IMG/VR virus record: IMGVR_UViG_3300027987_000273
Span: 1 to 52,215 of that record
DNA from: a virus
DNA: 52,215 nt
Strand: one strand, 5' to 3'
Below the pieces are notes generated by a model that did no database searches, was not told the origin of the DNA, and saw nothing but the letters and a program-made list of their open reading frames with translations. This document shows positions 17,736 to 52,215 of this stretch, in pieces. Both the position numbers and the translations under genes were made by a program. Numbering within the stretch: the stretch's first letter is position 1; each line of letters starts with the position of its first letter.

Positions 17736-17800
17736 GTGTTCACCTGAATCTCCTCCTGTGTCATAGTGCTGCGTTAGGCCACCTATGAAACGGTGTTTCC

Positions 17801-17819
17801 GCGTTTCACAGCGTTTCAC
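17801..17819. repeat. Two copies of GCGTTTCAC
   Basis: GCGTTTCAC occurs at 17801-17809 and 17811-17819 (10-base period), next to a GAAACGG at 17787. The same motif occurs at 22433 at the edge of the iteron-like array in the replication gene. It could be a binding site of the replication initiator. Confidence 0.4.
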
Positions 17820-17997
17820 TCCGTTGCGCCATTCGGAGGGTCTCCAGGGTCACGTTCTGGTCGAGACATCTGGTGGAGCAGCACCAGCCCTCGGGGTAGG
17901 CCGCGTAACCGCCTCGCAGGGTGAGGCGCTTACAGACTCTGCATCGGATGGCCGCCCGTGAGAGGACGCGACAGAGCGTCAGGGCGAGGTCTGGCAC
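17806..17997 (-). CDS. Small Cys-rich protein (63 aa)
   Basis: Sixty-three residues from GTG 17997. CRVC (19-22) and CCSTRC (39-44) suggest a zinc knuckle. The C-terminal codons overlap the GCGTTTCAC repeat pair. Function unknown. Confidence 0.55.
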   Translation of the reverse strand: MPDLALTLCRVLSRAAIRCRVCKRLTLRGGYAAYPEGWCCSTRCLDQNVTLETLRMAQRSETL

Positions 17998-18000
17998 TGG

Positions 18001-18270
18001 TCACTCCGCCGGAGCTTCAACACAGGAGCCTGGGCCGTGGTCGTCCACAGATTGCACAGGTAATCCACAGAGGCCGCACCGCTGGAGGCGCTGGACCCGG
18101 AGCTTCGGGGGACAGACCATGTAGCCCCCGCCCTTGATGGACAGGTGCGGAGCCTTCATCCACTCGCGTCGGACGACGTCGGCGACCTCGACCACCGCCT
18201 CGTCCCAGGGGTGAATCTTCAGGATGTCGCCGGGGACCACGTCGTCGGCGCTGCATTCTTGCCAGTTCAT
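18001..18270 (-). CDS. Unrecognised protein (89 aa)
   Basis: Eighty-nine residues from ATG 18270, in a 4-base overlap with the previous stop and with GGAGGAAG upstream. An N-terminal beta-like segment (DVVPGDILKIHPWDEAVVEV) and a C-terminal CGLC with a later Cys are visible. Function unknown. Confidence 0.6.
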   Translation of the reverse strand: MNWQECSADDVVPGDILKIHPWDEAVVEVADVVRREWMKAPHLSIKGGGYMVCPPKLRVQRLQRCGLCGLPVQSVDDHGPGSCVEAPAE

Positions 18271-20228: not shown

Positions 20229-20962
20229 AGGAGATCCTCCTGTTTCGCCTTCGCCCCCTGGGGGAGCTCGAGCTCGGCCTGCTCGCTGATATCCGCGATG
20301 CGCCGGTTCGCCGCCTTGGCCCACTCGGGGTTCAGCTCCACGCCCAGGCCCTCACGCCCCCATCGTTTCGCCGCGGCGATGGTGGTGCCCGAACCCGCGA
20401 ACGGGTCCAGGATACGGTCGCCCCGCTCCGTGAAGTCGCGGACCAGGGCCTCCATCAGCTCGAGGGGCTTCTGGGTGGAGTGGATGGCATCGCGGACGAC
20501 CCGGGCCTTCCAGACCGCGGGACGACCGCCGCCGTTCCAGCGCATCCGTCCCGACTCCCTGGGCGCATGGCCGATCACAATGCACTCGTGCCCAATCCCG
20601 GGCCGGTCGCCGGTGAACTGCGGGGTCCCCGCCTCCTTCAGCCAGATCCCACACCGGACATACTCGATGTCCCTGAACGAGAACTCGCGCATCCACTCCG
20701 TGACGCTTTCGGCGTCGCAGAACACGATGATCCACCGCTTCGCGATGCGCGCGAACTCGCGCGTCACGTCCGAGCGGATCTTCGGGGTGATGGGCTCGTA
20801 GCCGAAGTCCTTCATCTCCGAGACCGCGTTCTTCGACCCCTTCCGGCTGTTCCGGTGGACGATGGGCCGATAGGGCGGATCGGTGATCACGTGGTCGATG
20901 GCCCGGTCGGGGATCTTCGCCATGAATTCCCGACAGTCGCCGGCGTACACTCGACAGGTCAC
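20225..20962 (-). CDS. Beta-class DNA methyltransferase (N4-cytosine or N6-adenine)
   Basis: A 245-residue S-adenosylmethionine-dependent methyltransferase. The catalytic motif IV, TDPPY (27-31), precedes motif I, LDPFAGSGTT (185-194), and HSTQKPLEL lies at 161-169. This order defines the beta class (CcrM/DpnM-like organisation), which methylates the amino group of adenine or cytosine in short duplex sites. No cognate restriction gene is adjacent, so it is probably an orphan enzyme, for example to escape host restriction. The start is GTG 20962 with AGGAGG upstream, in a 4-base overlap with the DnaC-like gene. A longer frame upstream reads through the neighbour and is not real. Confidence 0.9.
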   Translation of the reverse strand: MTCRVYAGDCREFMAKIPDRAIDHVITDPPYRPIVHRNSRKGSKNAVSEMKDFGYEPITPKIRSDVTREFARIAKRWIIVFCDAESVTEWMREFSFRDIEYVRCGIWLKEAGTPQFTGDRPGIGHECIVIGHAPRESGRMRWNGGGRPAVWKARVVRDAIHSTQKPLELMEALVRDFTERGDRILDPFAGSGTTIAAAKRWGREGLGVELNPEWAKAANRRIADISEQAELELPQGAKAKQEDLL

Positions 20963-21636
20963 AGGGCCCTCCTCATGTCGGGATCGGCAATCTGGCGGAA
21001 TTCGCCGTGTTGGCGGAGCCGCGAGATGATGCGCGCCCCGTAGCGCTGGCGGAGCTGGTCGGGGGTGAGGTTCGTCGTGACGATGAGACAGGCCATCCGG
21101 GTCGCGTAGATGTCGAACAGCTCGTCGAGGTCGGCCAGGATGTTCCCCTTCCCGTCGGCGTATTCGGCGCCCAGGTCGTCGAGGACCAGGGCGGAGCAGG
21201 TCTGCCAGCGCTCGCGGAGGCGCCGGTCGTAGCGGCCCGCCGCCTCGAAGGCGTGGGCGCGCATGAAGAACGGGCTCGAGCCCCCGTGGTCGCCAATCCA
21301 CCGGACCGCCGCCCAGGTCTTCCCGGAACCGACCCCGCCCGCGATGATCCGGATGTTCTTCTCGGCGCCGCAGGTGCCCAGGCCCACCAGCGCTCTGAGA
21401 GCCCCTGTGTCGCGTTTGAATTCTGGGGCGTAAATGCTGCGGACTATCTTCTCGGGGGCCTCTCCGGCCAGGAGAACGGCTCTCCGTTCACGCTGGCGCT
21501 TCTCCTCCTCTCGGTCCACGTCGTCGATGAACTTGGCCTTCACCTGGGCATCGTGGGCCGCGCAGGCTTCGGGGTCGTCCAGGTCTACGCCCTGGTTCTC
21601 TAGTATCTTCGCGAATTCATTACCTAACCGTTTCAC
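20959..21636 (-). CDS. DnaC-like helicase loader (AAA+ ATPase)
   Basis: A 225-residue protein. Walker A is GGVGSGKT (100-107) and Walker B is LVLDDLG (150-156). A sensor-like TTN and the DnaC-type C-terminal pattern DQLRQRYGARIISRLRQHGE follow. Such proteins load the replicative helicase onto single-stranded DNA at the origin. No replicative helicase is encoded here, so it would recruit the host DnaB. It starts at GTG 21636, in a GTGA overlap with the replication initiator gene, the usual initiator-loader pairing. Confidence 0.9.
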   Translation of the reverse strand: MKRLGNEFAKILENQGVDLDDPEACAAHDAQVKAKFIDDVDREEEKRQRERRAVLLAGEAPEKIVRSIYAPEFKRDTGALRALVGLGTCGAEKNIRIIAGGVGSGKTWAAVRWIGDHGGSSPFFMRAHAFEAAGRYDRRLRERWQTCSALVLDDLGAEYADGKGNILADLDELFDIYATRMACLIVTTNLTPDQLRQRYGARIISRLRQHGEFRQIADPDMRRAL

Positions 21637-22880
21637 AGCTTCACCTCGCCCTCGACTTCTGGGCGCTCTTGGGGTTCGACACGGCCGAACCGGACATCAC
21701 TCTCGGGGGTTCCAATCTGCCCCAGGATGCGAAGAAAATTCTCCTCGCGCCAGTGGCTCACCCCGTTGAACCAGCGGGCCTGGCCAGCATCGCGCCGCAC
21801 ACGGTCGGCGATGTGGTCCAGGACGTCGAAGGCGCGCTCCTTGCCATAGGCGCGAATGCAATCCGCGACCCGGGCCAGGGCCTCGGCCTTCGGCTTCAGA
21901 CGCCTCGAGGTCGGGATGATTGCCGCCCGGAGGCTCTCCTGGTAGGCCCAGACCTCGGTCGCCTCGTCGCCCAGCTCCTCCAGGGCCTTCTCGATGCGCG
22001 TCTGCTTCTGGGTCACACACCGGAGCCCGACGACCAGGTCCACGCCCTCGGGGGCGCCGCCGACCCACTCGCCCCGGACGACCACCACGCGGATGTCCGC
22101 CTCGGACTCCTGGAGCTTCGTGACGGCCTTCCCCGTTGGGGTGCGGTTGGAGAACTCCACCGCGACACGGACGCCATCACGGACAGCCAGGGCGCCCAGG
22201 CGCCCGCCGTAGCCGTCCCCCCTGTCGGCGACGGGGATCTGGGTCTCGACCTCGAAGCCCGCCGCCTCCAGCGCACGGACGACCGCAGCCTTCGCCGCTG
22301 TCGCTGTGTCCGCGACCGAACCCTGGAGCCCCTCGAGGACGGCCTGGAGGTCGGTGGCGCCCCCGCCACCCTGGCGGGGGTTAGGGGGTAGGGCTTCTCC
22401 TCTCTTCTCTTCTCCTCTCTTCTCCTCTATGTGCGTTTCACCGTTCCGGGTCGTTCCGTTGCGTTTCGTCCCGTTTCGTACCGTTTCATCCGGTGGGTCT
22501 AAGTCGCCTGATCGCTTACGCTCGCGACACTTCCTGACTCGATCTGTGGATAAGTCCTTCGACAAGGACCATTCAGGTCCCCATCCAGTGATCGAGAAAT
22601 AAGCCCCTTCACGCGCGAGTAAACCCGACCGCTCGGCCCGGTCGAGCGAAAATTCCATGACCTCCTCGGGGGAGATCTTCAGGATGTCGGCCTCGCGGGC
22701 CAGTCCGGTGACCTGGGCCAGGTATGCCGGGTTCGCGTAGCCCACCGGTATCAGCCCGCCGTGGTCGTTGAACCGGTTGATCAGGAGGAGGTCGATGAAG
22801 GTGTTCGTCGCGAAGTAGCCCGCCTGGAGACACTTCGGGTTCTGTCGAATGGATGCGCCTATCTTCTGCCAGCTTGCCAC
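21633..22880 (-). CDS. Replication initiator/organiser protein with a nuclease-like insert
   Basis: A 415-residue protein. Residues about 1-110 resemble phage replisome-organiser N-terminal domains (winged-helix-like: LLINRFNDHGGLIPVGYANP, then LAREADILKISPEEVMEFSL). Residues 131-162 are a low-complexity linker with three RNG repeats. Residues about 197-286 look like a PD-(D/E)XK-type fold (GALAVRDGVRVAVEFSNRTP, then IRVVVVRG). The C-terminal 120 residues are helical. It is coupled to the DnaC-like gene, which supports an origin-binding role. The linker DNA holds a 10-base repeat array that could be the origin. The start is GTG 22880. Whether the nuclease-like part is catalytic is uncertain. 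Confidence 0.75.
   Translation of the reverse strand: MASWQKIGASIRQNPKCLQAGYFATNTFIDLLLINRFNDHGGLIPVGYANPAYLAQVTGLAREADILKISPEEVMEFSLDRAERSGLLAREGAYFSITGWGPEWSLSKDLSTDRVRKCRERKRSGDLDPPDETVRNGTKRNGTTRNGETHIEEKRGEEKRGEALPPNPRQGGGGATDLQAVLEGLQGSVADTATAAKAAVVRALEAAGFEVETQIPVADRGDGYGGRLGALAVRDGVRVAVEFSNRTPTGKAVTKLQESEADIRVVVVRGEWVGGAPEGVDLVVGLRCVTQKQTRIEKALEELGDEATEVWAYQESLRAAIIPTSRRLKPKAEALARVADCIRAYGKERAFDVLDHIADRVRRDAGQARWFNGVSHWREENFLRILGQIGTPESDVRFGRVEPQERPEVEGEVKL
22393..22492. repeat. Iteron-like 10-base repeats with adjacent polypyrimidine tract (candidate replication origin)
   Basis: Within the replication gene, the hexamers GTTCCG/GTTTCG/GTTTCA start at 22443, 22453, 22463, 22473 and 22483, exactly 10 bases apart, with a further GTTTCA at 22435. 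Next to them, 22393-22429 is an almost pure pyrimidine tract (purine on the minus strand). Ten bases is about one helical turn, as in origin iterons. Phage lambda likewise has its origin inside its initiator gene. The origin role is inferred. Confidence 0.55.
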
Positions 22881-51523: not shown

Positions 51524-52215
51524 TTACAGCGTGGCGTCGAGGTCGACGAGGGACCCCTGGGCGTTGCAGCGACGGACCTTGAGCTGCGGGTACAGGATCA
51601 GCTGGAACCGGTAGCTGTCGCCATTGCGACCCAGCGGGTTGATCCTGGCCACCAGGCCGGTCATCTGCGGACCCATGTCCATCTCGGGGGTGCCTTGCAC
51701 GCCGATCATGCCCATGGACTGGTTCACCTCGGAGATCCGGTCGGGCATCTGGCACATCTTGATGTGCCGCGTCGCGAGGAAGGACATCGCCGTCGACGGA
51801 TGGTCGACGTCGCGAACGACGGGGATCCCGTCGAACTCGAGGGCGTTGTGACCACCCTGGAGGGTGATCCGACGTCCGCGGATGGTCACGTCCTGCTGCC
51901 ATCGCCGCTCGTTGCCGAACAGCTTCGAGAACTTCGACCACAGGGCCGGGCCCGTCACGATCAGGTCGGTGTTCTCACCAGACGCGGTGTAGATCGCGTC
52001 CAGGGTGTCGCGCATGAGGTCGAACGTCAGGGCGCGCGGGACGCCGCCGTTCGCCAGCTCATTGGACGCCCACTGGGCCTGGGCTGCGCGGTCGATGCCC
52101 GCGTAGACGCCAGTCGTGTCCAGCGGACCAGACGTGGAATACATACCCACGATCTGTTCGGCCGCACCTGCGCCGGTCCAGAGATCGGCGTTGATGCCCT
52201 TCGCGAGACGTTCGA
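51524..52215 (-). CDS. Major capsid protein, C-terminal part
   Basis: Continuation of the capsid gene that starts at 499; the last 144 bases of this interval duplicate the window start. Residues 141-348 are encoded here, ending at a TAA at 51524. The C-terminal part has beta-rich stretches, for example around the residues NALEFDGIPVVRDVDHP, and an ending compatible with an HK97-like A and P domain. The next gene downstream is the 138-residue head-associated protein at 51010. Confidence 0.9.
   Translation of the reverse strand, partial: ERLAKGINADLWTGAGAAEQIVGMYSTSGPLDTTGVYAGIDRAAQAQWASNELANGGVPRALTFDLMRDTLDAIYTASGENTDLIVTGPALWSKFSKLFGNERRWQQDVTIRGRRITLQGGHNALEFDGIPVVRDVDHPSTAMSFLATRHIKMCQMPDRISEVNQSMGMIGVQGTPEMDMGPQMTGLVARINPLGRNGDSYRFQLILYPQLKVRRCNAQGSLVDLDATL
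52072..52215. repeat. Terminal direct repeat, right copy
   Basis: Exact copy of bases 1-144. It should be removed once when the genome is circularised. Confidence 0.97.

Follow-up and report, generated by a model that had tools for sequence, protein, structure and literature searches.

The phage represented by IMGVR_UViG_3300027987_000273, a complete virus record whose 52,215 bp were analysed as a whole (the window), very probably carries its replication origin inside the gene of its own initiator, in the part that encodes a linker, where a phased array of short repeats is combined with a purine tract and with the adjoining gene for a helicase loader. Computation places the array beside the purine tract and a hairpin, in that order, in a gene that adjoins the loader gene, and finds phased arrays again in the linkers of related initiators. 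We infer from these features that replication starts at the array at 22.4 kb. The initial annotation had proposed iterons and an origin within the initiator gene, and this reading is supported by the conservation of the phase in relatives and, weakly, by GC skew.

Genome context

A direct terminal repeat of 144 bp (1-144 = 52072-52215) marks the record as either a complete circle or a terminally redundant genome, and given this repeat the length of the circle is 52,071 bp. The identified genes are carried on the minus strand. Those for terminase, portal and head lie at 1.8-8.2 kb, and at 20.9-25.7 kb there is a replication/recombination block that comprises a DnaC-like loader, the gene for a 415-aa protein and a RecE-like nuclease. 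The loader gene (20959..21636, minus strand) matches PHROG 50, DnaC-like helicase loader, with an E value of 3.2e-21, is also an IstB/DnaC-type ATPase by Pfam with a score just under the cut-off, and shares 4 nt with the end of the initiator gene. Searches of IMG/VR with exact peptide patterns returned no close relatives of the loader or of the neighbouring 451-aa protein.

The skew change anticipated near the array was found in part. After detrending, cumulative GC skew shows a broad trough at ~22-28 kb, a minimum at 26.7 kb and a maximum at 49.4 kb, with an amplitude that reaches p = 0.02 by block permutation. This is compatible with an origin near 22.4 kb and gives it weak support, but the minimum lies 4 kb off the array, which is therefore not pinpointed by skew.

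The array and its flanking elements

The iteron-like array occupies 22433..22492 on the minus strand and reads TGAAACGGTA CGAAACGGGA CGAAACGCAA CGGAACGACC CGGAACGGTG AAACGCACA on the coding strand. As initially annotated, hexamers of the form GTTYCG/GTTTCA start at 22443, 22453, 22463, 22473 and 22483, with one more at 22435, and all of them fall within the replication gene, the minus-strand open reading frame of 415 aa at 21633-22880. The recurrence of GCGTTTCAC at 17801 and 17811 was likewise found, its only other occurrence being at 22433. On the coding strand, RAACG repeats at 10-nt steps through 22433-22492, and the units (~CGAAACGSNA) are direct 5/10-bp repeats without a palindrome. The finer period is 5, with ACG filling 8 of 12 slots spaced 5 nt apart, as compared with at most ~5 slots elsewhere in the window and at most 5 in 40 random genomes.

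Read in the coding direction, the elements follow one another in the order DnaA box (22553-22545), array (22492-22433), purine tract (22428-22394), and CCCCCTAACCCCC with its hairpin (22388-22360). The DnaA box, TTATCCACA (22545..22553, minus strand), is perfect and lies 52 bp upstream of the array; it is the sole exact match in the 52-kb window, and none occurs in 20 random genomes. The pyrimidine tract that had been reported beside the array is present, but its uninterrupted length is 35 nt (22394..22428) rather than 37. On the minus strand it is an uninterrupted purine tract and a putative unwinding element. No other tract in the window comes near it in length (next best score 18); it was never matched in 300 synonymous shuffles of the gene, and forms the least stable 40-bp stretch of the region, in the top 0.07% of all 40-bp windows, although at 49% G+C it is not A+T-rich in absolute terms. 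Beyond it, CCCCCTAACCCCC is followed by a perfect 9-bp G+C hairpin (22360-22380; the whole element spans 22360..22388, minus strand), which at -12.5 kcal/mol as single-stranded DNA is the second-best short hairpin in the window. The element consists of a double C-run and a G-run, and alternative pairing is possible, as there are two C-runs per G-run.

A second cluster of the repeat unit

The array unit forms a second, intergenic cluster at 17774..17830 (minus strand), which reads CGCAACGGAG TGAAACGCTG TGAAACGCGG AAACACC and is adjoined by an inverted TGAAACGG. By the weight matrix built from relatives (see below), this is the window's second-best three-unit chain, with a score of 22.9 that was reached by 1 of 300 random genomes, and no unwinding tract is evident there. 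The cluster is possibly a second binding site, comparable to oriR of SPP1. A DnaA box with one mismatch lies near the cluster, at 18061.

Such a cluster raises the question of whether the initiator binds the repeats less to start replication than for autoregulation, incompatibility or copy control. In favour of this are the intergenic cluster and the second block found inside the N-terminal domain sequence of about half of the relatives, which imply that not every cluster can be a melting site. Against it, the 22.4-kb array comes together with an unwinding-type tract, a hairpin and a DnaA box, a combination to be expected at an origin, and a pure operator needs none of the three; a mainly regulatory role is unlikely.

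Phased repeats in related initiators

Two scans of viral contigs with the DNA unit yielded both plain simple repeats and arrays in initiator linkers; many of the hits were plain intergenic simple repeats and were not counted as support. The proteins whose linkers hold the arrays have matches to several PHROG families of replication initiators. The N-terminal domains of two of these initiators, without the linker, were used as queries for further initiators, and an alignment of ten domains gave 80 viral and 58 bacterial-genome loci chosen by protein alone, or 112 genes after removal of near-duplicates. Their annotations include replisome organizer, replication protein O and primosomal protein I. 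Since the seed of the alignment (L030) was chosen for having an array, shared descent contributes to the recurrence, and the synonymous-shuffle test is independent of that.

The 10-base phase is conserved in this set of phage and prophage genes. In 107 of the 112, many of which encode proteins only ~35-50% identical to the query, the linker contains 6-mers exactly 10 nt apart. Altogether, the linkers hold 770 identical 6-mer pairs at 10 nt, compared with 37.7 expected from synonymous shuffling (~20-fold), and spacings of 20, 30/31 and 40 are also raised. In contrast, the C-terminal parts of the same 112 genes show no 10-nt excess (12 pairs versus 10.9 expected). The typical unit of the family, ~NGNNACGCAA, is close to that of the window, and in the window as in the relatives the ACG-core units stand exactly 10 nt apart in a linker that follows an RxRxxRERxR tail. 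A weight matrix built from the relatives only, with the window's gene left out, ranked the array at 22433..22492 first in the window, with a chain score of 37.1 against 22.1 for the best of 300 random genomes.

The flanking elements recur less regularly: at least about half of the relatives lack the purine tract, and likewise the hairpin. At least 27 purines in a 30-nt window are found in 55 of 112 genes, where 14% would be expected, and the most purine-rich window precedes the array in 36 of 103. C-run/G-run hairpins are present in 23 of 112 (6.0 expected), and the double C-runs lie mostly 33-60 nt past the last unit, as they do in the window.

Arrays of this kind could in principle arise as functionless products of simple-sequence slippage, or could serve as packaging (pac) or partition sites, and outside initiators there are indeed pure arrays of (ACGGA)n and (GAAAC)n, also in a terminase small-subunit gene. 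The units in the window, by contrast, are imperfect yet phased and fit the consensus of diverged relatives in the same linker, and the 415-aa gene adjoins a helicase loader, not a terminase. We consider this explanation very unlikely.

Several further observations were made among the relatives. About half of them (~60/112) have a second 10-nt-phased block inside the sequence for the N-terminal domain, for example at ~nt 105-150 in L056. A double C-run/G-run hairpin recurs after the purine tract in L087, L100, L112 and L169, phages of unrelated hosts, and the counterpart in L112 of the element formed by CCCCCTAACCCCC and the hairpin, again after the array, is CCCCCTAACCCCCGCCAGCGGGGG. In L005 and L017, GAAAC-type arrays occupy the linker of the terminase small subunit and could be a packaging site of like build. 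By eye, a TAGA seemed to be conserved between array and tract, but only 27 of 107 relatives have it, and it was dropped. A loader next door was likewise rejected as a rule of the family: in the DNA examined, a downstream Walker-A gene was seen for 19 of 109 relatives only.

Constraint at the level of DNA

The regularity of the array in the window was compared with synonymous recodings of the linker, in which the protein is kept and the codons are redrawn from the phage's own usage. Five RAACG at 10-nt steps did not arise in any of 20,000 recodings, nor in any of 40 random genomes, and the codons of the array are rare for this phage (e.g. GTA 3%, AAA 8%, GGA 8% and ATA 1%). Because of both results we conclude that the regularity was selected as DNA, not as protein; that is, computation shows a DNA-level constraint on the array. 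The initial claim that the 10-base period goes beyond an amino-acid repeat thus holds for the 10-nt phase, whereas part of the 5-nt regularity follows from the encoded RNG repeat. It is hardly credible that the repeat exists at the protein level only, with the DNA regularity as a by-product of selection on a flexible, hydrophilic RNGT/EEKRG linker: although the linker does include VRNGTKRNGTTRNGET and EEKRGEEKRGE, and the 5-nt ACG count is matched in 0.6% of the recodings, the 10-nt phase never is, rare codons run throughout, and the ~20-fold excess over synonymous shuffling in the relatives falls at 10, 20 and 40, none of which is a multiple of three.

The putative initiator

The translation of 21633..22880 (minus strand) gives a 415-aa protein made up of an N-terminal part ending in STDRVRKCRERKR, the linker encoded by the array DNA, and a separate C-terminal domain. 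The protein has no match in Pfam, and lambda O-like families gave none in Pfam or PHROG. PHROG 1347, a family of unknown function, matches residues 174-290 only (E 6.5e-13), and no family was matched by the N-terminal domain. Close relatives were found neither in IMG/VR by exact peptide patterns nor among phage records by tblastn at E values up to 10, and single-sequence structure prediction gave a mean pLDDT of 38, which is too poor for use. When the N-terminal domain was compared with those of the relatives by hhalign, the RERxR tail alone was aligned, and weakly (probability 11.5%, E 0.0026). We infer the role of an initiator from the position of the gene, from the DNA of the linker and from an RVRxxRERxR tail that is common, at a weak level, with replisome organizers; the proposed link to the relatives similarly rests on the DNA unit, its position within the gene and the RERxR tail. 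In the domain after the linker, residues 174-290 (21978-22360) contain a beta-rich stretch with GVRVAVEFSNRT that may be reminiscent of nuclease-like folds.

Proposed mechanism and significance

With the origin placed in the linker-coding DNA, the N-terminal domain of the 415-aa protein would bind the helically phased ACG-core iterons as an array, and this binding would strain and open the adjacent purine tract, the presumed start of melting. The DnaC-like loader encoded by the next gene would then put the host DnaB helicase on the opened strand. The C-run hairpin may mark the place of loading or keep the melted strand from closing. Host DnaA may contribute by way of the neighbouring DnaA box, and the 415-aa protein would use the 17.8-kb cluster as an auxiliary site.

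A broader proposal, to which we give somewhat less than even confidence, is that a compact dual-coding cassette of 10-bp-phased ACG iterons, a purine tract and a double C-run hairpin is common to initiators of unrelated protein families. Conservation would then be stronger in the DNA cassette than in the protein encoded with it, and the C-run hairpin could be an undescribed functional part at which, for example, the helicase or primosome is loaded.

That an origin may lie inside a phage initiator gene is already known. Among open-licence papers, we found no report of this repeat unit, or of phage initiators that combine iterons with a purine tract, nor a description of the variant seen here, in which short helically phased units recur across diverged initiators, accompanied by a purine tract and a C-run hairpin. 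Replication origins are hardly ever mapped in uncultured phages, and a 10-nt phase that survives synonymous shuffling would allow origins to be found from sequence in many phages and prophages. It would also explain the odd low-complexity linkers of phage replication proteins (RNxT, KDKD, EEKRR, PPNPPxGG) as DNA signals that are translated through. The claim is directly testable through synonymous recoding.

Comparison with known origins

A close anatomical parallel is the lambda origin, in which iterons inside gene O, beside P, precede a melting region that has nearly all its purines on one strand (PMC5043065, PMC7466680). The window resembles the origins of lambda and the Stx phages in having its origin candidate within the initiator gene, iterons and then a one-strand purine tract, and the loader gene next (PMC5043065, PMC7466680): the repeats lie inside the putative initiator gene, upstream of the helicase-loader gene and adjacent to an easily melted purine tract. 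In lambda, however, O dimers bind iterons that are inverted repeats of 19 bp, whereas the window has 5/10-bp direct repeats and no 18-19-bp iterons with internal dyad symmetry, and it has in addition a C-run hairpin after the purine tract. The comparison with lambda made at the outset therefore holds for anatomy but not for protein homology, as the 415-aa protein does not match the lambda O families.

BstA/aba, a DNA signal that overlaps a gene, was also considered and set aside, as it has no sequence or layout in common with the array. Iteron plasmids such as P1, RK2 and R6K have helix-phased direct repeats, an unwinding element and a DnaA box (PMC5043065), all of which have counterparts here; the window differs from them in that its repeats have about half the length and are located inside a coding region, and the 415-aa gene is no plasmid Rep by any match. 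SPP1, with oriL, oriR and gp38, has direct repeats and an unwinding element in its initiator gene 38, where oriL lies, and a second cluster elsewhere (PMC6316719), but its repeat is a different one, no relation between the proteins was detected, and the 17.8-kb cluster of the window differs in the lack of an evident unwinding tract. Francisella phage KIRK has other repeats and an AT-rich genome, and its putative origin, known from prediction only, is likewise lambda-like, with the repeats inside a replication gene (PMC7924643).
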